Shown: in pieces, positions 3,003 to 11,694 of the stretch
Layout: each line of letters opens with the position of its first letter
Position numbering within the stretch: the first letter of the stretch is position 1
Source: Pseudomonadota bacterium
Lineage (GTDB): Bacteria > Myxococcota_A > Polyangia > Fen-1088
Reading direction: 5' to 3'
DNA: 39,963 nt
Assembly (NCBI GenBank): GCA_017881245.1
Contig: JADGRC010000215.1
Coordinates: 1-39,963, forward strand
Translations under genes and position numbers: made by a program
The notes under the pieces: model-generated
Databases searched by the model: none
Seen by the model: the letters and a program-made list of their open reading frames with translations, nothing else
What the model was told of the DNA's origin: nothing

Positions 3003-4705
3003 GTCGGCGGCTCCGGCGCCGCGGCACCCTCCACCGGGGCGGCAACGCCACCCTCCGTCGAGGGAGCGCCCTCGGGGGCGCTCTTGGCGCACTTGTTAAG
3101 TATCTTGACGCGATAATAACCAAGCTCGTCCCGCCAGTATTCGCCGGTAAACGGCCACATATCGTGTTCATCGTCGGCGCGAATTTCCTCGGGCCGTTTT
3201 TGAGCGCCGGCCTCTTTGATGATCTGTTGCTCTTCCTGGACTTCTTGCTCCAGATCGCCCTTCGCGCCCTGCAAGATTTCGTACTCGATCTTGATGACGC
3301 GCTTGATGAGTTGGGCCAGCTCGTCCGTGAGCCTCTTGATTCGGCGGCGCGAGAGGTCTCCGCCCTCGTTCATGGCCAGCGATTTCTGCAAGGTCAGATC
3401 AGCCAGAATCGTCTGCGCGATGTTCGTGTTCTTCCAGGAAGTGTCGGCTTTGTCGTGCTGGTTGATCTCGCGCGTCAACTCGTCGACGTACTCGAAACGC
3501 TTGACCAAGCTCTTGTCCGACAACACGGCGCGCGCCGCCCGCTCGGTCCCTTCGGGCAGGCCCGAGGTCCCCTGCCGGATCTTGACCGCGAGCTCAAAGA
3601 GCGCGGCGTTGTCGGTATTGGTAGCGACCAGCTTGCTCAGATCTTGGAAAAGCTGGGGATAGATGCTGTTGAATTCGGAGATCGCACCCTCCGCGCGATC
3701 GTAAAGGCAATTGTAAAAATAGATTGTGGCCTTGACGGTCAGCGCCTCGCCGATGGATTCGGGCTTGATGTAGTTTTCAAAAAAAGGAGCCTGCAGCGTG
3801 TGGATATTGCCCAGCGCCTTGGAGTACCCCTTTTGCTTCAGCATGAAGTTCGCCCACGACGCCTCGAAAAGACTGTTCGCCCAATCGTAGGATTCCTGCG
3901 ACACACGATCGAAGTACTTGGTCGCCAGATCGAATTGGCCAGTCGAATAGAAGGTCCTCGCCAGAGATAGGTTGGCGAGATCCTCGAACGGCTTGATCTT
4001 CGGATCGGAGCTCTCGGCCGACGCGCGAAGGACCTCCTTGAACGCGTCCACCGCGGGTTTTGCTTCGTACTCGCGAACGTGCGTGGCGCCCTCGAACAAT
4101 TTCGACTCGACGTACCACTCACTCCCCGGGGGCACGGCGGAGAAAAGCTCGACGGATTCCTTGAACTGACCCTTCTGATAGTTGAACTTCCCGAGCAAGA
4201 AATAGAGCTCGTCACGCACCTTTTCTAGGGCGGGCTGATCCAGGTCCGAGCGGTTGAACTTCCCGATCTTCTCGAGAATGCCCGTCGAATCGGGCAGCTG
4301 TCGTGACAAGGATGCAAGCCACTTGAGGGTCGCGTTGTAGTAGGCGTGGGAGGGTCCTTTTTGAACAATGCGATCGAAGTACGACAACGAGGCCGAATAG
4401 AACTTCAGGCTGTAAAGGGCCTTACCCATCCAGAACTCGGCCTTCTGCTTGTTCGCCTCGCTGTCACCAGATTCGCCCTCGACCACTTTGTTGAGCTCGA
4501 TCGTCGCCGAATAAAAATCCTCACCGTCATATAGCTTCAGCGCTCGTTCCAGCACCTTGGAAGGCTGGTCGCCCGTCGGAGCGGCCTCTGGCTGAAAGTC
4601 GCCTTTGGGAGCGGCCGCCTTCTTCTTCTTCAGGGCGTGGACTTGGGGAGACGCAAGCAGAAGTGAACAGGTGAGGGCAATGCCGAGACCGCGAAATCGG
4701 CTCAT
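2996..4705 (-). CDS. Exported TPR-repeat protein (GltE/AglT-like architecture)
   Basis: The product is 569 residues. The N terminus is a signal peptide (MSRFRGLGIALTCSLLLASP, cleavage near VHA-LKKKK). A Lys/Pro-rich linker leads into TPR helices from about residue 50 to 390 (for example AEFWMGKALYSLKFYSASLS and LANLSLARTFYSTGQFDLAT). Residues about 430-515 form a charged, probably coiled-coil helix. The end carries a compact motif with WPFTGEYWRDELGYYR and one Cys, then an Ala/Pro/Glu-rich tail. The role is likely an envelope scaffold acting with the larger TPR protein just downstream. The C-terminal EYWRDELGYYR-type motif reminds me of myxobacterial AglT/GltE proteins; I could not verify this by alignment. 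The upstream 460 bases hold no gene and should contain its promoter. Confidence 0.85.
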   Translation of the reverse strand: MSRFRGLGIALTCSLLLASPQVHALKKKKAAAPKGDFQPEAAPTGDQPSKVLERALKLYDGEDFYSATIELNKVVEGESGDSEANKQKAEFWMGKALYSLKFYSASLSYFDRIVQKGPSHAYYNATLKWLASLSRQLPDSTGILEKIGKFNRSDLDQPALEKVRDELYFLLGKFNYQKGQFKESVELFSAVPPGSEWYVESKLFEGATHVREYEAKPAVDAFKEVLRASAESSDPKIKPFEDLANLSLARTFYSTGQFDLATKYFDRVSQESYDWANSLFEASWANFMLKQKGYSKALGNIHTLQAPFFENYIKPESIGEALTVKATIYFYNCLYDRAEGAISEFNSIYPQLFQDLSKLVATNTDNAALFELAVKIRQGTSGLPEGTERAARAVLSDKSLVKRFEYVDELTREINQHDKADTSWKNTNIAQTILADLTLQKSLAMNEGGDLSRRRIKRLTDELAQLIKRVIKIEYEILQGAKGDLEQEVQEEQQIIKEAGAQKRPEEIRADDEHDMWPFTGEYWRDELGYYRVKILNKCAKSAPEGAPSTEGGVAAPVEGAAAPEPPTK

Positions 4706-5165
4706 GAATACCTCTTGCTGAGTTGTCCTCGAACGGGGGTACGAAGAACGGGGGGGAGAAGGAGGGGACGGAGATAGACGAGCGGGGAAAAATAGCGCGT
4801 CGACGACGTAGCCGGCATATTGATTTCGCTAACGGCTACAACGACATACAGCGACGTGCGTCGGCGTGTAAGGGCACACCCAAAACCGGGTCATGCTAGA
4901 CGTGGGGATCACGGCTGTCAAGGGGACGACCGCGGCGATTAGCGGCAACTCCCTGGCGATCGCGAGCGCTGCTGTTTCGGGCGATGGGGGCTTGCGGATT
5001 CGATTCTTAGCGCCCTCCCGAGAGCCATGCTAGTGCGTGGTCGGCCGGGAACAGTCTGGTTTTACTGGGGGTTGCGCGTCTTTGGAGTTGACAGGTCAAC
5101 GTCTGCCAGTAACATGGCCGGCCCGGCGGGAGCCCGTTTCCCGCAGCTGGCGCGAAGGAGCCCCA
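4706..5165. other. Intergenic region between divergent genes
   Basis: These 460 bases hold no convincing gene. They must carry the promoter of the minus-strand TPR operon and the plus-strand lipoprotein promoter described separately. A 7-base inverted repeat, GTAGCCG (4808-4814) and CGGCTAC (4833-4839), lies about 105-135 bases upstream of the TPR start and is a candidate regulator site. A purine-rich tract is seen at about 4734-4795. No tRNA or obvious structured RNA was found. Confidence 0.6.
5087..5115 (+). promoter_or_regulatory. Sigma-70-type promoter with palindrome over the -35 box
   Basis: A consensus -35 TTGACA (5088-5093), a 16-base spacer and a -10 TAACAT (5110-5115, 4/6 match) lie upstream of the lipoprotein ATG at 5166, predicting a leader of about 45 bases. 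The -35 is embedded in the inverted repeat GTTGAC-AG-GTCAAC (5087-5100), so a dimeric repressor bound there would block RNA polymerase. The promoter call is sound by sequence; the operator role is inference. Confidence 0.6.
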
Positions 5166-5633
5166 ATGACGTCTTTGCCGTCCTCGTCTCGCTCGATACG
5201 GTCCGTGAGTCTGCTGCCGTTGTTGATGGCTGCGATACCGATGTTGCTGGCGGTCGCCTGTGCCGACAAGCACATCGGGCGTCCGTGTGTGGTGAGTAGC
5301 ACCCTGCCGACTGATCCGACTATCGCCGCTGTCAATACGCAGGCGCTTGAATGCCCCTCGCGGATCTGCCTCCTGCCGGCCCAGGAAATGACACTGGATA
5401 GTACCCCGCCCACGGGGCCGCTTTGCACGGATTTCTGCAGCAGCGACGACGACTGCGCGGACGGTGAGAGGCGGGCGAAAGGTGACCTAACCTCCACCCG
5501 TTGCATCGCTGGATTCGCTTGCCGTACGCCCATCGGACACCTCGAGACCAATCCGCTTTCTTGCAAGCAAGTTTGCGTCTGCAAGGACTTCCTGAAGGCG
5601 GACTCCGTCGCGAAGCCAAAGAGCTGTCCCTGA
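5166..5633 (+). CDS. Small Cys-rich lipoprotein, unknown function
   Basis: I start at the ATG at 5166 because AAGGAG (5155-5160) sits five bases upstream; a longer in-frame extension to 5037 lacks support and would bury the signal peptide. The 155-residue product has a lipoprotein signal peptide ending in the lipobox LAVAC, so it should be lipidated and placed on the inner or outer membrane. The mature part is rich in Cys (at least 12 residues, including FCSSDDDC and CKQVCVCKD), a pattern common in myxobacterial secreted lipoproteins and likely to form disulfides. No enzymatic motif is visible. It is transcribed alone from the promoter at 5087-5115. Confidence 0.75.
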   Translation: MTSLPSSSRSIRSVSLLPLLMAAIPMLLAVACADKHIGRPCVVSSTLPTDPTIAAVNTQALECPSRICLLPAQEMTLDSTPPTGPLCTDFCSSDDDCADGERRAKGDLTSTRCIAGFACRTPIGHLETNPLSCKQVCVCKDFLKADSVAKPKSCP

Positions 5634-5691
5634 CGCTCGGCTGTCGGTTCCGATCGGCCGCTGACCGCATTAAGGTGTGGCGGCGGGCTGC

Positions 5692-6123
5692 TCACACCGA
5701 CGTTTCAAAGGCGGCCTGAATGTGGACCAGCCGCGGTTCACGACCGTCATCGAAGAAGGTCACTGCAATCACGTCAAATCGATATGCCGCGGCCGGCTGC
5801 GATGCCTCGGCCAGATAGCTCCGCGCGACCCGAACAACCTGGGCCTGTTTTCGGGCGTTGACGGTTTCCAAGGGATCACCGGAGGATTCGCCCGTCCGCG
5901 AGCGGACCTCGCAAAAGACGCAGGTGCCGTCGACGTCGACGGCGACCAGGTCCAACTCACCGGCGGCCCGACGCCAGTTGCGCTCGACGATACGCATGCC
6001 GGCGCTCTCCAAGCAAGCGGCGGCCATCGCCTCGGCGCGACGGCCCAAGTGAATGCGAGCCGCACCACGACCATCGGGTGACACCTTCCGAGGACTAGGT
6101 GCCTTACCCGATCGCAGGGGCAT
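5692..6123 (-). CDS. yraN: YraN family (UPF0102) nuclease-like protein
   Basis: The 143-residue protein carries the restriction-endonuclease-like core of the YraN/UPF0102 family. The visible elements are LGRRAEAMAAACLESAG, the core Glu in ERNWRRAAGELDLVAVD (GELDLVA motif) and FCEVRSRT, which supplies the E-x-K/R-type catalytic position. The family is widespread; its exact substrate is unsettled and it is usually described as a predicted endonuclease for nucleic-acid processing. It is the last gene of the rpsP-rplS operon, 30 bases after rplS, and genes for YraN often sit beside rplS. The N-terminal 25 residues are basic and poorly conserved, so the true start could be further in. Confidence 0.88.
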   Translation of the reverse strand: MPLRSGKAPSPRKVSPDGRGAARIHLGRRAEAMAAACLESAGMRIVERNWRRAAGELDLVAVDVDGTCVFCEVRSRTGESSGDPLETVNARKQAQVVRVARSYLAEASQPAAAYRFDVIAVTFFDDGREPRLVHIQAAFETSV

Positions 6124-6138
6124 TCCCAGGCCCCTTGC

Positions 6139-6153
6139 GGCGGCGAAGCCGCC
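6139..6153 (-). other. GC-rich hairpin between rplS and yraN
   Basis: Read on the minus strand this is GGCGGC-TTC-GCCGCC, a 6-bp stem with a 3-base loop that fills half of the 30-base gap after the rplS stop. There is no T-run, so it is not a standard intrinsic terminator. It may reduce read-through into yraN or protect the rplS mRNA end. Confidence 0.5.
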
Positions 6154-6600
6154 CTAGGTCGCCGACGGCAAAGCCGCGTCGGGGACGACCGCCGCGTCTG
6201 GGGTGATCGCCGTGGGCACGCTCGGTACGGCACCCTCAGCGACGTCCTCCCGCTTCTCAACCTTGATTCGGGCGGCCTTTCCCTGAAGCTGTCGCAGGTA
6301 GTTCAGACGGGCGCGACGAACGTGCCCCTTCTGAACGATCTCAATCCTCTCGATGCGCGAGGTGTGGAGAGGAAAGATCCGCTCGACCCCGACCCCGTAC
6401 GAGATTTTACGCACGGTAAACGAAGCCCGCGAACCGCCTCGGTGTTGTCCAATGACCACCCCTTCGAACACCTGGACGCGCTCCTTGTCGCCCTCCTTGA
6501 TCAGCGTATGAACGCGAACGCTGTCACCCGACCGAAAGGCCGGCAGATTCAGTCGCAAATAGGAAGCGTCAATTTCTCTCAGAAGGGGATGTTGGCTCAT
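6154..6600 (-). CDS. rplS: 50S ribosomal protein L19
   Basis: The first 115 residues match L19: [60 protein letters not shown] and [20 protein letters not shown]19 lies at the interface of the 30S and 50S subunits. A C-terminal tail of about 30 residues, rich in Ala, Val and Pro, extends past the usual end of the family and is probably disordered. CGGAG lies about 6 bases before the ATG. The gene follows trmD with a 161-base gap, larger than elsewhere in the operon, which could hold an internal promoter or processing site, although none is obvious. Confidence 0.97.
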
Positions 6601-6761
6601 GGGTACTCCGAAGGGGCGTCATTACTAACGGGGGCGAGGAAACGAGTCAAGCGCCGCGCGATGGCCGTTCGATGACCGTTCGACGGCGGGTCGCATGGCA
6701 AGGTGGAAACTGGGAAGAAAGTCAGGTGATGGGACCACAGGAAGCACGGCACCGCGACCTA

Positions 6762-7568
6762 TCAGGATCGCCGCCCGCCCGGAGTGCCGTCAGCGTCGGC
6801 CGCATCAGCGACATCCGGTGAAGCAAGTTCCGCGTCATCCCGCATCCAAACCCGTTCCTCATCGGTGGGGGGATACCTCGCCATCAGATCCGGTCGGGAG
6901 ACCATCGTACGGTGGAAAGCCTGTCGACGCCGCCAACAGTCGATGGCCGCATGATCCCCCGACAGCAGAATCGACGGGACGACGTGTCCCCGAAAATCCA
7001 CGGGTCGCGTAAACTGCGGGTATTCCAGGCGGCCGTGAGAAAACGATTCGTCGGCGGTCGACAAGCCCGAGCCGAGGACGCCGGGAATCAGCCGAGCCAC
7101 GGTCTCAATCACCACGGCGGCGGCTAGCTCTCCGCCGGCCAAGACATAGTCGCCGATGCTCAGTTCCTCGTCGCACAGTCCAGACACGCGTTCGTCGAAC
7201 CCTTCGTAGCGGCCACAGACGAGGACAATGCGCGGCATCGCCGCCAGGCGACGGACGTGGGTTTGGTCGAGGAGTTTTCCGCGTGGCGAAAGTAAAACCT
7301 TGTGCGCGGGCCCCCGTCGAGTCGCGATATCGTCCAGAGCGGCCGCAAGCGGTGGCACGCTGAGTATCATGCCTGGGCCTCCACCACAGGGTGTGTCGTC
7401 CACCGAGCGATGACGATCCGTGGCGAAATCGCGCTGATTGGTCCTTTCGACCCCGATGATGCCAGCGGCTACGGCCCGGCCGAGCAGACTGGTGCCCAGA
7501 ACGTTGTCGAACAGTTCCGGAAACAACGTTACGAGCTCGAACGTGATGACGGGAGCCTGGTCAGCCAT
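6762..7568 (-). CDS. trmD: tRNA (guanine-N1-)-methyltransferase TrmD
   Basis: TrmD uses S-adenosylmethionine to methylate G37 of tRNAs, which prevents +1 frameshifting. The diagnostic trefoil-knot motifs are clear: FELVTLFPELFDNVLGTSLLG, DDTPCGGGPGM, LVCGRYEGFDERV, LSIGDYVLAGGELAA and EYPQFTRP. I place the start at ATG 7568 (MADQAPVITFELVTLFPE, 268 residues) because it matches the family start; an in-frame ATG at 7586 is also possible and would add MVMVMG. In either case the gene overlaps the end of rimM, so the two are translationally linked. The overlap lies in a short ATGGTG repeat. The C-terminal tail is Asp/Ala-rich. Confidence 0.96.
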   Translation of the reverse strand: MADQAPVITFELVTLFPELFDNVLGTSLLGRAVAAGIIGVERTNQRDFATDRHRSVDDTPCGGGPGMILSVPPLAAALDDIATRRGPAHKVLLSPRGKLLDQTHVRRLAAMPRIVLVCGRYEGFDERVSGLCDEELSIGDYVLAGGELAAAVVIETVARLIPGVLGSGLSTADESFSHGRLEYPQFTRPVDFRGHVVPSILLSGDHAAIDCWRRRQAFHRTMVSRPDLMARYPPTDEERVWMRDDAELASPDVADAADADGTPGGRRS

Positions 7569-8106
7569 CCCCATCACCATCACCATTCGGGCCCCACGCG
7601 ACGACGATCTGCCGTGCCGGCATGTCCACCAGTCGTATGAAAGGCGGCACGAGTGGAATCAAATGTTCGCCACCGTCGGTCCCCGCTCCTAGCACCGACA
7701 TGACGTCGTGGGCTCCATTCCAAAAAATGCTGTCGACCCTTCCCAGGATGTCACCCTCCGGGGTACGCACCTGACATCCGAGGAGGTCCTCGACGAAAAA
7801 TTCTCCGGGCCCAAGAGCGGGCAGCGCGTCTTTTCGAACCCGAACCGCGGCGTGGGTCCACTCCGCCGCGCGGTCGCGCGAATCGATCCCAGAGACCCGC
7901 ACGAGCCAACCGTCGGCGCGACGCCGTGCCGTGCACAGGCGACGCACCTCTCGGAGATCTCCTCGTTCGAGAATGAGTTCCGGCACGGCCGCCAAATCCG
8001 CGCCGCCACTGTTGTACGCGCGCAAAGTCATCTCACCGTCCAAACCGTGAGGGCGCCCAATGATTCCCACCACCAACGAATCGGGATCGTACGTGGGCCG
8101 TGCCAT
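7561..8106 (-). CDS. rimM: Ribosome maturation factor RimM
   Basis: RimM assists late 30S maturation around the 16S 3' domain and S19. The N-terminal RimM domain shows LVVGIIGRPHGLDGEMTLRA, and the PRC-barrel part shows GEFFVEDLLGCQV, GRVDSIFWNGAHDVMSV and LIPLVPPFIRLVD. I prefer ATG 8106 (MARPTYDPD, 181 residues) because AGG is spaced 8 bases upstream; the frame also allows GTG at 8115. The last residues are the odd repeat GDGDGDG, encoded by the same bases that give the start region of trmD. It follows khpA by about 40 bases. Confidence 0.95.
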   Translation of the reverse strand: MARPTYDPDSLVVGIIGRPHGLDGEMTLRAYNSGGADLAAVPELILERGDLREVRRLCTARRRADGWLVRVSGIDSRDRAAEWTHAAVRVRKDALPALGPGEFFVEDLLGCQVRTPEGDILGRVDSIFWNGAHDVMSVLGAGTDGGEHLIPLVPPFIRLVDMPARQIVVAWGPNGDGDGDG

Positions 8107-8146
8107 CACCGACACCTACCGCGCGTGATGCGCGGACACAGGCAAC

Positions 8147-8395
8147 CTACTCCAGAATCTCGAGGACCACGCGCCGCCGCATCTTCGACGATGCAGCGGA
8201 CAGCACCGTGCGCAACGCCTTCGCAGTCCTGCCCTGCTTTCCGATCACCTTGCCGAGGTCGGGCTCGGCGACCTTGAGCTCGAAGACCAGCGCGTCCGGT
8301 TCGTCCACCTCTTCCACAACGACCTCTTCGGGACGGTCGACGAGGCCCCGCGCCAAGTATTCGATCAACAGCCGGAGGGAGGATTCTTGCCCCAA
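8147..8395 (-). CDS. khpA: KH-domain RNA-binding protein KhpA
   Basis: The 82-residue protein is a single type II KH domain. Its RNA-binding GxxG loop is GKQG within LGKVIGKQGRTAKALRTVL, and the flanking helices have the usual KhpA pattern (LRLLIEYLARGLVDRPEEV at the start). KhpA binds a range of mRNAs and small RNAs, usually as a homodimer or with KhpB. The start is TTG 8395, chosen because AGGAG lies six bases upstream and the protein begins at the usual point. Its place between rpsP and rimM is the standard one in many bacteria. No khpB/jag is in this window. Confidence 0.93.
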   Translation of the reverse strand: MGQESSLRLLIEYLARGLVDRPEEVVVEEVDEPDALVFELKVAEPDLGKVIGKQGRTAKALRTVLSAASSKMRRRVVLEILE

Positions 8396-8420: not shown

Positions 8421-8684
8421 CTACTTCGCTGACACGGGCGGCGCGGCGCGCTTCAACCCACTGATCAACTCGCCCACGGTTTGGCTCGGAACCGCGCCCA
8501 CCGACAGCCAATGCTGCAACCGTTCCGAATCGATTCGGACCTCGGGAGGGGTGCGCAGGGGATCGTAGACGCCCAACTGTTCAATGAACCGGCCATCGCG
8601 GGGACTGCGCCTGTCGGCCGCCACGACACGGTAGAAGGGAACTTTCTTGCCGCCGCCGCGGGTGAGTCGAATGGTCACTGACAT
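8421..8684 (-). CDS. rpsP: 30S ribosomal protein S16
   Basis: The 87 residues show the S16 signature: [40 protein letters not shown], and [19 protein letters not shown]16 is an assembly protein of the 30S body. AAGGA lies six bases upstream of the ATG. It is the first gene of the translation operon and is preceded by the minus-strand promoter at 8741-8769. ffh, which often precedes rpsP elsewhere, is not adjacent here; a divergent cytochrome gene takes that place. Confidence 0.97.
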
Positions 8685-8740
8685 GGAAATCCTTGCGAGA
8701 CCTGGAGAAGTGACGGATGACAGGTGAAACGAAGGGACGC

Positions 8741-8769
8741 ACCCTAGCGACCGGATAGGCCCATGTCAA
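8741..8769 (-). promoter_or_regulatory. Promoter of the rpsP operon
   Basis: On the minus strand a perfect -35 TTGACA (8769-8764) is followed after exactly 17 bases by TAGGGT (8746-8741), which keeps the key T1, A2 and T6 positions. Transcription would start near 8734, leaving a leader of about 50 bases before rpsP. The strong -35 and ideal spacing fit a highly expressed ribosomal operon. Confidence 0.65.
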
Positions 8770-8891
8770 GGTGCTGGCGGCGCGATCGGCCCAAGGTCGG
8801 TCCGAACATCCCGAGGTCGGCCCGAGGGCCAACGGTGGACCCACGAAGCGGAATTGGCGAGGGCCATCTCGGGTTGACATAGTCGGGGGCC

Positions 8892-10625
8892 ATGGTTCAC
8901 GCCAACAGACGCAAGACACGGGGGACTCCGTCGTTCGCCGTTGCCGCGATCTTGATCTGGGTGATGCCGAGCGCCGCCGGATCCGCACGCCCGCCGGGCA
9001 TCGCGTCGGGCGAGCGGCGCGCGACGCTCTTTTACACAGCCGAGGTGCATGGCACGGTGGAACCGTGCGGCTGCACCAGCGATCCTTTGGGTGATGTTTC
9101 ACGCCTGGCGGCCCTGATCGAGGATGCCCGGCGCGGCGGCGCGGCGGTGGCGCTGGTTGACGCCGGCGGATTGCTGTATCCCACGGGAACGATTTCGGCC
9201 AAGGAACGACAATCGGCGGACCTGCGCGCCGATTTCTTGGCGACCGAGTTCGAACGCATCGGGCTACTGGGAGCCGCGATCGACGAGACGGACACCGTCG
9301 CTGGTCCCGCGCACGTCCGTCCCACCCGTCTCGCCTCCAATCTCACGGGCGGGGCCGCGGTGCTGAACCCACCGCGCGTGGAGCGCGTCGGGGGCATCGC
9401 ATTGGGGGTACTGGGAATCGCCGATCCGAGCGTGGCGGCGGGGATCGAAGGCAAGGCCCGCGACTCGAACGAGGCGGCCAAGCGAGCCGTGGACGGCCTA
9501 AGGCGAGCGGGCGCGGAAATCGTCGTGTTGTTGGCGGCGGTCGACAAGGTCTCCGCTCGCAAACTGGCCCGAGAGGCGGGCGCTGACATCCTGATCGTGG
9601 GCAAGAAGGTGGGTACCGGCATGTCCCGCATGGAGCGCGTGGGCCGAACCTTCATCGTCGCGCCCGGGGAAGAACTGCAGCGCGTGGGGCGTCTGGAGAT
9701 CGTGTTGCGCGCACCCGCCCTGCCGGGTGGTGTCCCCCCCGAGCTGCAGGACGCCGGGGGCCCGGCCGCCACCCGACTGAGACAAGACGAGGTCAACCGG
9801 GCGCTGGAGCGTTTACGCATCGGCCTGGCAAAGTGGTCCGCCAAGCCGGCGGACAAGAGGACCGGCGCCGCTGACGACGGCACCGACGGGGCATTCGTCG
9901 CGGCCAAACAACGAGAGCAGGCGGAGTTGGAAGCGGAGAGAGTCCACTTGCAAATACCATGGACGCCGCCCCCCACGGGGAACTACGTCGTCAATGCGCT
10001 GCTGCCGCTCCGCCGCAGTTTGAGGCGTGACCCCAAGGTCGCCGCCGCCATGAAAAAGCTAGATCAGCGTGTGGCCGCCATGAATCTGAAGAACGCGACC
10101 CCGCCGCCGCCGGCCGAGCCGGGGCGTGAATTTTACGTAGGAATGGACAAATGCACCAGCTGCCACGCGGGTGCCGCGGCATTCTGGAAACGAACGGTCC
10201 ACGCCCACGCGTGGAGGACGCTGGTCGAAGGGGGCAAGCAGGCGGACTATAAATGTGTGGGATGCCACGTAACGGGATTTGGTCAGGTGGGGGGGACGAG
10301 CCTCGGCTTCACCAAGCGGCTTGAGTCCGTGCAGTGCGAGACTTGCCACGGTCCGGGATCGCTTCACGTCGCGGGTGAGGGCAACGAGGAACCCATGGCC
10401 ATCAAGCGCGATGTTCCCGAAACAGTTTGCCTGGGATGTCACACCGAACAGCATTCCGACACGTTCCAGTTCGAACCATACTTGCGCGATATCGTTGGAC
10501 CCGGTCACGGTCAGAAACGCCGAAAAGTTCTGGGGCCGGGCACCACGGGGCACGATCTTCGATCGGCGGCGCTCGCCAGAGCCAAGTCCTCGGGCCAGGC
10601 GGATGGCATGCTGAACAGTCCGTAA
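8892..10625 (+). CDS. Exported UshA-like (metal-site-less) domain fused to tetraheme cytochrome c
   Basis: The 577-residue protein has a signal peptide (hydrophobic AVAAILIWVMPSAAG at about 16-30). Residues about 44-280 resemble the metallophosphoesterase domain of 5'-nucleotidase/UshA proteins (LFYTAEVHGTVEPCGC, VALVDAGGLLY, GADILIVGKKVG). However, the usual metal ligands appear replaced: E51 where DxH is expected, G93 for the Asp of DAGD, AAID where GNHE is expected, and K for the last His of GGH. The C-terminal part has four CxxCH heme sites at Cys421, 455, 482 and 513 (CTSCH, CVGCH, CETCH, CLGCH), with extra His for axial ligands. The role is probably periplasmic electron transfer or sensing by an inactive nucleotidase scaffold. 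Related phosphoesterase-cytochrome fusions exist in Deltaproteobacteria. It is monocistronic and divergent from rpsP. Confidence 0.85.
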   Translation: MVHANRRKTRGTPSFAVAAILIWVMPSAAGSARPPGIASGERRATLFYTAEVHGTVEPCGCTSDPLGDVSRLAALIEDARRGGAAVALVDAGGLLYPTGTISAKERQSADLRADFLATEFERIGLLGAAIDETDTVAGPAHVRPTRLASNLTGGAAVLNPPRVERVGGIALGVLGIADPSVAAGIEGKARDSNEAAKRAVDGLRRAGAEIVVLLAAVDKVSARKLAREAGADILIVGKKVGTGMSRMERVGRTFIVAPGEELQRVGRLEIVLRAPALPGGVPPELQDAGGPAATRLRQDEVNRALERLRIGLAKWSAKPADKRTGAADDGTDGAFVAAKQREQAELEAERVHLQIPWTPPPTGNYVVNALLPLRRSLRRDPKVAAAMKKLDQRVAAMNLKNATPPPPAEPGREFYVGMDKCTSCHAGAAAFWKRTVHAHAWRTLVEGGKQADYKCVGCHVTGFGQVGGTSLGFTKRLESVQCETCHGPGSLHVAGEGNEEPMAIKRDVPETVCLGCHTEQHSDTFQFEPYLRDIVGPGHGQKRRKVLGPGTTGHDLRSAALARAKSSGQADGMLNSP

Positions 10626-10692
10626 GGACCCGCGGAGAACCCGCAAGCAGCCAAGTTTTGACACAACCGTCGTCGTCGCTCCGGGCGACCAG

Positions 10693-11694
10693 TCAAGAAG
10701 ATGTGACGGGGCCGGCCAGCAACTGGTCCAAAAGGTCGGGCTCGATATTGCCGCCGGTGATAACGACGACGACACGGCGGCCCCGAATCGAGTCGGGTTG
10801 TTCCAACAGGGCGGCCAGCGCCGGTGCGGCCGAAGCTTCGCACAGAAGACCCAAGGTCCGATACGCATAGACGACGGCCTTGCGTATGGCGATCTCGCTG
10901 ACGAGAACGATGTTGGGGAAATAGTCCTTTGCCATCCGAAAGGTGCGTTCACTCACCGCCCCTTCGAGGCCTTCGGCCAGCGTGAGCCCTCCGTGATACG
11001 TCGTGTAGGCACGCCCCTCGTCCAGCGACCGACGCATGGCGCAGTTCACTTCGGCCGAGACTCCCAGGATCCGAATCCCACGCGGGACGACCTCCACACC
11101 GATTCCGCCGGCCAGTCCGCCCCCCCCGACGGGCACGACAACGAGTTCGACGTCGGGAAGTTGCGCGAGCATCTCGCGGGCCAGTAGGCCACCGTTGCCC
11201 GCCATCACATAGTCATCATCGAACGCCGAGACAAAGACCAGATTCGGCTCGGCATTAGCGCGCCGCCGGGCCTCGGCCTCCGCTTCGTCGTAGGTCGCCC
11301 CAATCACCTCGACGGCGGCGCCCAGCGCCGATATGCCCGCGCGCTTCAACTCGGGTGCCTGCGCCGACACGATGATCGTGGCATCCAGTCCGAAGGTTTG
11401 GGCCGCCAGGGCGACGGCCAGTCCGTGGTTGCCGGCCGACGCGGCGATCACACGCGCGCGCCCCGGTCCGGTGTGATCGCGCTGAATGGCCGCCAGGCGA
11501 GCGGCGGCGCCGCGCAGCTTGAACGAACCGGTGCGTTGCAGGCATTCGAGTTTCAACCAAACGTCGGCCCCGGTCCGCCTTCCCAAGGCCGGAGCCGGCA
11601 CAAGCGGTGTCACGCGCGTCAATCGCCGGACCCGATCGGCGATATCCCCGCCGGTCACCTCGCGCCACACATCCGCGTCGAACAGCCGTTCCAA
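10693..11694 (-). CDS. PLP-dependent threonine/serine dehydratase
   Basis: This is a fold-type II PLP enzyme that deaminates L-threonine or L-serine to 2-oxobutanoate or pyruvate, or may racemise serine. Lys59 in LQRTGSFKLRGAAARL is the Schiff-base residue, ASAGNHGLAVA binds the substrate, and VPVGGGGLAGG is the phosphate-binding Gly loop. It is about 320-333 residues long and lacks the C-terminal regulatory ACT domain of biosynthetic IlvA, so a catabolic TdcB-like or serine-racemase-like enzyme is more likely. The start is uncertain: TTG 11694 is used here, GTG 11658 is also consistent with family alignments, and the frame stays open far upstream through antisense sequence. It is divergent from nadA and convergent with the cytochrome gene. 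Confidence 0.88.
   Translation of the reverse strand: MERLFDADVWREVTGGDIADRVRRLTRVTPLVPAPALGRRTGADVWLKLECLQRTGSFKLRGAAARLAAIQRDHTGPGRARVIAASAGNHGLAVALAAQTFGLDATIIVSAQAPELKRAGISALGAAVEVIGATYDEAEAEARRRANAEPNLVFVSAFDDDYVMAGNGGLLAREMLAQLPDVELVVVPVGGGGLAGGIGVEVVPRGIRILGVSAEVNCAMRRSLDEGRAYTTYHGGLTLAEGLEGAVSERTFRMAKDYFPNIVLVSEIAIRKAVVYAYRTLGLLCEASAAPALAALLEQPDSIRGRRVVVVITGGNIEPDLLDQLLAGPVTSS

Follow-up and report, generated by a model that had tools for sequence, protein, structure and literature searches.

The gene at positions 8892 to 10625 of the window, by which we mean the whole 39,963-nucleotide stretch of DNA that was analysed, encodes a UshA-like domain fused to a tetraheme cytochrome. We read its product, with a probability of roughly 0.6, as a thiol/selenol redox protein that is exported and whose CGC/CGU centre would occupy the place of the old metal site, with the hemes carrying its electrons. 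Computation on the protein and its homologues yielded the UshA/5'-nucleotidase/SoxB fold, the loss of the metal ligands, the invariance of a CxC/CxU motif, the exchange of selenocysteine (Sec) and Cys within that motif, and a tetraheme fold of the cytochrome c554 type.

Gene and genomic context

The open reading frame (ORF) runs from an ATG at 8892 to a stop codon at 10623-10625 (577 aa). A check of the ORF and its translation upheld the coordinates, frame and strand given in the preliminary description.

8892..10625, plus strand: CDS, UshA-like (PCGC) domain and tetraheme cytochrome, 577 aa (NF041198, 245.5 bits, E 1e-72, aa 39-528 against profile positions 19-519 of 519)
8892..8984, plus strand: probable signal peptide of the Sec type, spanning roughly aa 1-31 with its cleavage site near SAAGSA (read from the sequence by inspection; model pLDDT is low there)
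8421-8684, 8147-8395, 7561-8115, 6762-7586 and 6154-6600, minus strand: rpsP-, KH-, rimM-, trmD- and rplS-like genes, in that order (RimM and TrmD by Pfam, the rest by inspection)

The window protein would be exported. By inspection, no Cys lies upstream of its PCGC motif, and so it has no lipobox; in the family, lipobox-like sites were found upstream of the motif in 33 of 77 rows. The minus-strand genes listed above flank the ORF and diverge from it, and on the opposite flank lies a minus-strand gene for a PLP-dependent enzyme (PF00291, Pfam). The window gene adjoins housekeeping genes, with neither a cytochrome nor any other redox partner observed among them, and a trmD-like ORF was present in the flank of 8 of the 79 loci compared, the window among them. 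A promoter and terminator scan of 8500-10900 gave no promoter-like and one terminator-like site, with no excess over shuffled sequences.

The host genome (6.17 Mb in 534 contigs, 92.8% complete) is G000 in our numbering and the window is its contig C516. A genome of the same genus carries a copy of the window protein at 74% identity, and all 17 genomes of the genus and family gave a match, although for one (G009) this was only a 63-residue fragment. Matches at E≤0.001 were obtained in 44 of the 59 genomes searched, its own included, some of them through weaker paralogues only. Among the 80 loci kept, the nearest relative with a name came from a Myxococcota MAG (L087; 55% identity). Scanning genome contigs with a pattern built from the single window protein returned 58 pattern hits and no relative.

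Relation to the UshA-like (seleno)protein family

The best NCBIfam match was NF041198, 'UshA-like (seleno)protein' (UshA_like_PCGU), with a score below the family's cut-off of 275. Members of NF041198 share with the window protein a PCG[C/U] motif, here P58-C59-G60-C61, a UshA-like fold and a C-terminal multiheme part, and the profile was matched over this full-length UshA-like plus multiheme architecture; the window protein differs in its sub-threshold score and in having Cys in place of Sec. Scores above the cut-off were found in 10 of 235 genomes sampled from the phylum, and 9 of these 10 matches contained an in-frame TGA, which indicates that the cut-off of 275 fits mainly the Sec branch. 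At E≤0.001 the profile matched in 234 of the 235 genomes, yet it also matched in 9 of 14 control genomes, and this count was set aside. Judged by its profile match, the window protein is a close relative of NF041198 and not a formal member. A second profile, NF049981 (UshA-like (seleno)protein family 2), gave a weak match of 17.5 bits, short of its cut-off of 140; the text available of PMC13188914 gives the motif of this second family as CxxU, as opposed to CxC in the window protein.

The family and its Sec reading are in print, listed as CxU in the accessible parts of PMC2398784 (there as COG0737 UshA-like), PMC9312934 and PMC13188914. The accessible part of PMC2398784 tables the family as CxU, yet names it as an exception among the major families in which a Cys-based redox motif is conserved. 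On the heme fusion, the metal loss and the function of the family, a search made mostly outside subscription papers found no text. The UshA-like family and its CxU are thus already published, and the window gene is a Cys relative that is ordinary within it.

A nucleotidase/SoxB fold that has lost its metal ligands

An AlphaFold2 model of the window protein, built on a 78-sequence alignment, reached a pLDDT of 88.8 and a pTM of 0.87.

9012..10091, plus strand: UshA/5'-nucleotidase/SoxB-fold domain, about aa 41-400 (AlphaFold2, VIA, hhalign)
9759..9950, plus strand: a pair of long helices (aa 290-316, 333-353) that follow the phosphoesterase core and precede its final strand plus linker helix (DSSP on the model)

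Foldseek matched the model to 84 PDB chains at E≤0.001, and the 50 of them listed were 5'-nucleotidases, SoxB and their kin; the 50 matches listed by VIA had Z scores of 29.7 to 24.3. The metallophosphoesterase core is common to E. coli UshA (1ush, Z 27.4 over 265 residues), the T. thermophilus protein 2z1a (Z 29.6 over 266 residues) and CD73. By sequence, the family profile matched YfkN, 5'-nucleotidases and SoxB in the PDB at 2e-28 to 8e-14, and hhalign aligned it with E. coli UshA at a probability of 98.4% (E 4e-15). Coiled-coil PDB matches of the full-length profile were taken as chance, and Pfam at E≤1 gave no match in the UshA-like part of the window protein. The nucleotidase-fold assignment made earlier from the sequence was borne out by structure prediction and by alignment with UshA.

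SoxB thiosulfohydrolase, an enzyme of sulfur oxidation, has the same fold (Z 26.2-27.1; 2wdc, 27.1) and showed the highest identity, 24-25%, among the 50 PDB matches listed. The window protein nevertheless scored only 19 bits against the SoxB model TIGR04486, whose cut-off is 550. To our knowledge SoxB has no hemes. According to the accessible part of PMC5336275, it carries a metal pair, unlike the window protein. The structural matches to nucleotidases extend to about residue 400, with a few stray residues beyond. In 5'-nucleotidases the substrate-binding domain is C-terminal. The window protein lacks this domain and has a c554-like tetraheme domain, which in the model appears to stand in its place.

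The metal site of UshA, which we take to consist of D41, H43, D84, N116, H117, H217, H252 and Q254 (letters confirmed in the E. coli sequence), was mapped onto the window protein with MAFFT and hhalign. The two methods agreed on seven substitutions, D41 to E51, D84 to G93, N116 to E132, H117 to T133, H217 to A216, H252 to K238 and Q254 to V240; the one residue of the eight that was kept is H53, the equivalent of H43.

9042..9050, plus strand: E51-V52-H53, remnant of the metal motif D-x-H
9168..9170, plus strand: G93, replaces metal ligand D84
9282..9293, plus strand: D131-E132-T133-D134, replaces G-N116-H117-E
9537..9539, plus strand: A216, replaces metal ligand H217
9603..9611, plus strand: K238-K239-V240, replaces H252-S253-Q254

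The preliminary description had considered every recognisable metal position lost. This holds for seven of the eight, including the substitutions at E51, G93 and the Lys (K238) that it named, but not for H53 of the D-x-H motif. Its pairing of GNHE with AAID (128-131) has to be moved three residues further on, to D131-E132-T133-D134, and the loss of H217 at A216 is an addition to its list. The alignments gave no sign of an intact dinuclear site formed by other residues.

The losses were then counted over 144 members with CG[CU], that is, 149 such rows minus duplicates, with the window protein included; six rows without CG[CU] (four tetraheme, two with CAC or CAU) were tallied separately. Among the 38 Sec and 106 Cys members, respectively, the canonical residue was kept in 13 and 42 at D41, 4 and 11 at H43, 12 and 21 at D84, none and none at N116, 2 and 1 at H117, 10 and 20 at H217, 10 and 13 at H252, and none and 2 at Q254. 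No member kept more than four of the eight residues, a number reached in five of the 144, and 105 of the other 143 members kept none or one. As judged from these alignments, ligand loss is old, patchy and family-wide, so that a loss peculiar to the window gene is ruled out; H53 is not itself a conserved remnant, an H43 equivalent being present in 15 of the 144 members, the window protein included. With its dinuclear metal site lost and an intact tetraheme cytochrome fused to it, the protein is unlikely to be a phosphatase of the ordinary kind. A phosphoesterase still active through an unusual metal site, for which the fold match to 5'-nucleotidases and SoxB (Z 24-30) could be cited, is hardly credible with seven of eight ligands changed and N116 in 0/144 and H117 in 3/144 members.

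An invariant CGC/CGU motif behind the former D-x-H

The strongest conservation signal of the domain is a motif that the preliminary description did not mention. It follows E51-V52-H53 directly, joined to it by G54-T-V-E57.

9063..9074, plus strand: P58-C59-G60-C61, invariant CxC that is CxU in the selenoprotein homologues and is proposed as the redox centre (alignment of 78; codons read)

Across 78 homologues, C59, G60, C61 and G67 were the only invariant residues among the 361 positions of aa 40-400, followed by G92 (77/78) and P58 (73/78). The old metal positions D41, H43, D84, N116, H117, H217, H252 and Q254 ranked 42, 154, 203, 150, 255, 282, 269 and 327 of 361, and the D134 position was Asp in 61 of 78. 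According to their record titles, the homologues span Myxococcota, Thermodesulfobacteriota, Pseudomonadota, Nitrospirota, Planctomycetota, Verrucomicrobiota, Gemmatimonadota, Armatimonadota and Acidobacteriota.

Besides the window protein, the alignment contains 77 of the 83 stretches, from 80 loci, that the profile matched. These loci had been collected with a pattern of the heme part and not with the CGC motif. Rows then had to show CG[CU], sufficient coverage and all four heme sites; every stretch that spanned at least 440 profile positions had CG[CU]. Left out were the first gene of L138 (CAU, no hemes), L152 (front missing), and two stretches each of L149 and L166, which lie in different frames and contain CGU and CGC, respectively. 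In twelve rows the sequence was truncated at a TGA further along.

Selenocysteine and cysteine forms

The codon for residue 61 was TGA in 16 of the 78 rows. In the window gene it is TGC, and the window genome gave no SelA match and no SelB match above the cut-off, which fits the Cys form; that the window ORF itself encodes a selenoprotein was rejected on the TGC codon and the missing SelA match in this 92.8% complete genome. In a quick tree the window protein fell in a Myxococcota Cys branch, and the tree required at least three Sec/Cys changes, two of them forced by starred branches.

The Sec loci also differed downstream of the motif. Counting from the first base of the last motif codon, GGTCT lay within bases 13-32 at 15 of 17 Sec loci against 3 of 62 Cys loci; it resembles the loop of a bacterial SECIS. 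The mean fold z downstream of the motif was -1.32 for Sec loci versus -0.10 for Cys loci, with a p of 4e-5 that is generous, as GGTCT is in part coding sequence for a Gly-Gly-Leu that many members share, and as the loci have common ancestry. According to the accessible part of PMC9312934, redox proteins are believed to make up most selenoprotein families.

Two placements in the tree may be recorded separately. The Cys form of the cable bacterium Candidatus Electronema aureum (L129) was nested among Desulfobulbaceae Sec forms, a Sec/Cys change within a narrow group. L108 (BNCN01000001.1, 'Comamonas sp. KCTC 72670') sat on short branches inside Myxococcus, and this record may be mislabelled or contaminated.

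A c554-like tetraheme domain

The C-terminal part matched PF13435 (Cytochrome_C554) over aa 420-487 with 54.8 bits, above the gathering score of 20.8. A separate model of this last part had a pLDDT of 91.9, and VIA matched it to cytochrome c554 (1ft6) with Z 11.6 over 136 aligned residues at 32% identity, the next entries among the 15 chains compared reaching 6.3.

10122..10622, plus strand: tetraheme cytochrome c554-like domain, about aa 411-577 (PF13435; separate model; 1ft6 match)
10152..10166, plus strand: heme site 1, C421-TSC-H425
10254..10268, plus strand: heme site 2, C455-VGC-H459
10335..10349, plus strand: heme site 3, C482-ETC-H486
10428..10442, plus strand: heme site 4, C513-LGC-H517
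10200..10202, plus strand: H437, probable distal heme ligand (invariant 78/78; role inferred from c554 homology)
10365..10367, plus strand: H492, probable distal heme ligand (invariant 78/78; role inferred from c554 homology)

All four CxxCH sites are intact, as had been claimed from the sequence (aa 421-425, 455-459, 482-486 and 513-517), and each was invariant in 78/78 rows, the four sites having also served as a row filter. The H539 position was His in 45 of 78 rows, and some His lay 8-60 residues past the fourth heme site in 68 of 78. In c554, one heme is five-coordinate. By analogy, one heme of the tetraheme domain may be open as well, which is a hint only. The window domain has four CxxCH sites and its fold in common with c554 of Nitrosomonas europaea, but c554 is a free electron carrier, whereas the window version is the C-terminal domain of a fusion. 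A multiheme c-type cytochrome selenoprotein, MccSep (PDB 9wt8, 9wt9), matched the heme profile at E 1.2e-5 as a whole with no single stretch passing alone, and did not match the full-length family profile at E≤0.01; a literature search found no paper on MccSep.

Heme-less relatives, paralogues and neighbouring cytochromes

The motif is not tied to the hemes. All 26 heme-less relatives examined kept CxC or CxU (23 CG[CU], 2 CAC, 1 CDC): 20 loci whose NF041198 match ended at position 375-393 had CGU (18) or CGC (2), and six further loci had CGU (2), CGC (1), CAC (2) or CDC (1). None of these 26 had a CxxCH in the ORF, or an ORF with at least two CxxCH in the stretch examined. Retention of C-x-C/U in 26/26 heme-less loci, where the middle Gly is not always kept, implies that the motif has a role of its own; the existence of such relatives further means that the CxC/CxU centre needs no hemes in cis and that wiring to hemes is not general in the family. 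Conversely, four tetraheme paralogues without CGC, on contig C161 of the window genome and in genomes G001, G005 and G007, indicate that the hemes also occur without the motif. Residues equivalent to D84, H217 and H252 are retained in these four, those equivalent to N116/H117 are not, and the pattern is the reverse of that in the window protein.

Several individual loci are of note. The CGC-less tetraheme UshA-like paralogues of the same genome or family are L064 (G000:C161, 2534-4006, minus strand), L066, L068 and L069. A third UshA-like gene of the window's genome (L065, G000:C172, 2213-3454, minus strand) is heme-less and has EHCGC. Three loci of the window's family (L080, L171, L176) are heme-less with CAC or CDC for CGC, showing that, outside the tetraheme group, the motif can do without its middle glycine. 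In L138, a heme-less UshA-like stretch with CAU for CGU (4601-5356) is followed by a CGU tetraheme gene (5648-6994).

An adjoining ORF with 16 CxxCH was present at 5 of 16 Sec loci (L122, L138, L143, L150, L163) versus 0 of 61 Cys loci. Of the Sec loci, 12 of 16 exceeded 9 kb in length, and of the Cys loci, 39 of 61, so that missing flank would explain only part of this difference; at 11 of the 16 Sec loci no multiheme neighbour was seen. The 16-CxxCH ORFs of L122 and L150 had an NrfH-like start in NCBIfam, below cut-off (1e-11 and 1.2e-12), and one 16-CxxCH ORF scanned with Pfam had a NapC/NirT-like start (1e-9). L122, L138 and L150 also had a 9-CxxCH ORF, two of which were scanned and gave a weak cytochrome b561 match below the Pfam gathering score. 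It is possible that the 16-CxxCH ORFs, with or without the 9-CxxCH ORFs, form a respiratory module with the Sec-type UshA-like cytochromes beside them. In seven loci (L126, L127, L134, L136, L140, L144, L149) a gene recognised by inspection as RarA/MgsA-like ATPase lay just upstream, an adjacency that is probably only shared housekeeping order.

Proposed mechanism and alternatives

In the reading that we prefer, a 5'-nucleotidase/SoxB-type domain would have given up its dinuclear metal site, and the Cys-Gly-Cys (Cys-Gly-Sec in relatives) behind the former D-x-H would react with a thiol, a disulfide, sulfane sulfur or something similar. The c554-type tetraheme domain would serve as the electron path linking the CxC/CxU centre with a partner in respiration, probably through a quinol link via an NrfH/NapC-type cytochrome where one is encoded nearby. 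Conservation and the Sec/Cys exchange are what point to CxC as the catalytic centre and to the hemes as its electron partner. Because SoxB is a relative, sulfur compounds are a reasonable opening guess for the substrate, and no more.

The preliminary description had proposed a nucleotidase fold recruited as a ligand-binding or docking domain. In such a protein the metal-less fold would merely bind a ligand or dock the cytochrome, and C59-C61 would be a structural disulfide or a staple of the fold. Loss of seven of eight ligands next to intact hemes would suit this, tight disulfides can have a structural role, and the four CGC-less tetraheme paralogues speak for it as well. A pure docking domain, however, needs no invariant CxC/CxU, and here the motif is invariant (78/78), conserved above all else in the domain and placed directly behind the former D-x-H. 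Sec replaces Cys in 16/78, which is not expected for a staple, and the heme-less relatives keep the motif with no fused cytochrome to dock. We consider docking unlikely, and not the best reading of the domain.

CxC is also a metal-binding arrangement, and C59 and C61 (or Sec) might, with E51/H53, D134 or other residues, form a new centre for Cu, Zn, Fe or a similar metal. E51 and H53 are close by in sequence, and the D134 position is Asp in most rows. Yet E51 and H53 are not conserved, which leaves the two Cys/Sec as the sole fully conserved candidate ligands of the domain, and a new metal centre seems improbable to us.

It would be very surprising if C61/Sec or C59 served as the distal ligand of one heme of the tetraheme domain. 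Beyond the His of the CxxCH sites only H437 and H492 are invariant, so that two hemes are without an invariant His partner, but the His found past the fourth site in most rows may ligate a heme, and c554 itself has its five-coordinate one. As a general role for CGC, heme ligation is ruled out by the 26 heme-less relatives that keep CxC/CxU.

Returning to the thiol/selenol redox reading, a wider evolutionary scenario can be sketched tentatively. The 5'-nucleotidase/SoxB fold may have changed once, in the distant past, from hydrolysis with metals to selenol/thiol redox catalysis without them, giving an enzyme family that now occurs in many phyla, with a tetraheme wire in one branch; its members might be, for example, SoxB-like handlers that oxidise or reduce protein- or small-molecule-bound sulfur and do not hydrolyse it. 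We rate this scenario as possible, though on the doubtful side.

The accessible texts of PMC2398784, PMC9312934 and PMC13188914 name the family and list it as a CxU selenoprotein, giving no function. The lost metal site, the CxC/CxU motif, the occurrence of heme-fused and heme-less forms and the multiheme neighbours together provide a testable redox hypothesis for these 'UshA-like' proteins. 'UshA-like' would then be a misleading hydrolase name, and to annotate the group as 5'-nucleotidases or phosphatases is probably a mistake.
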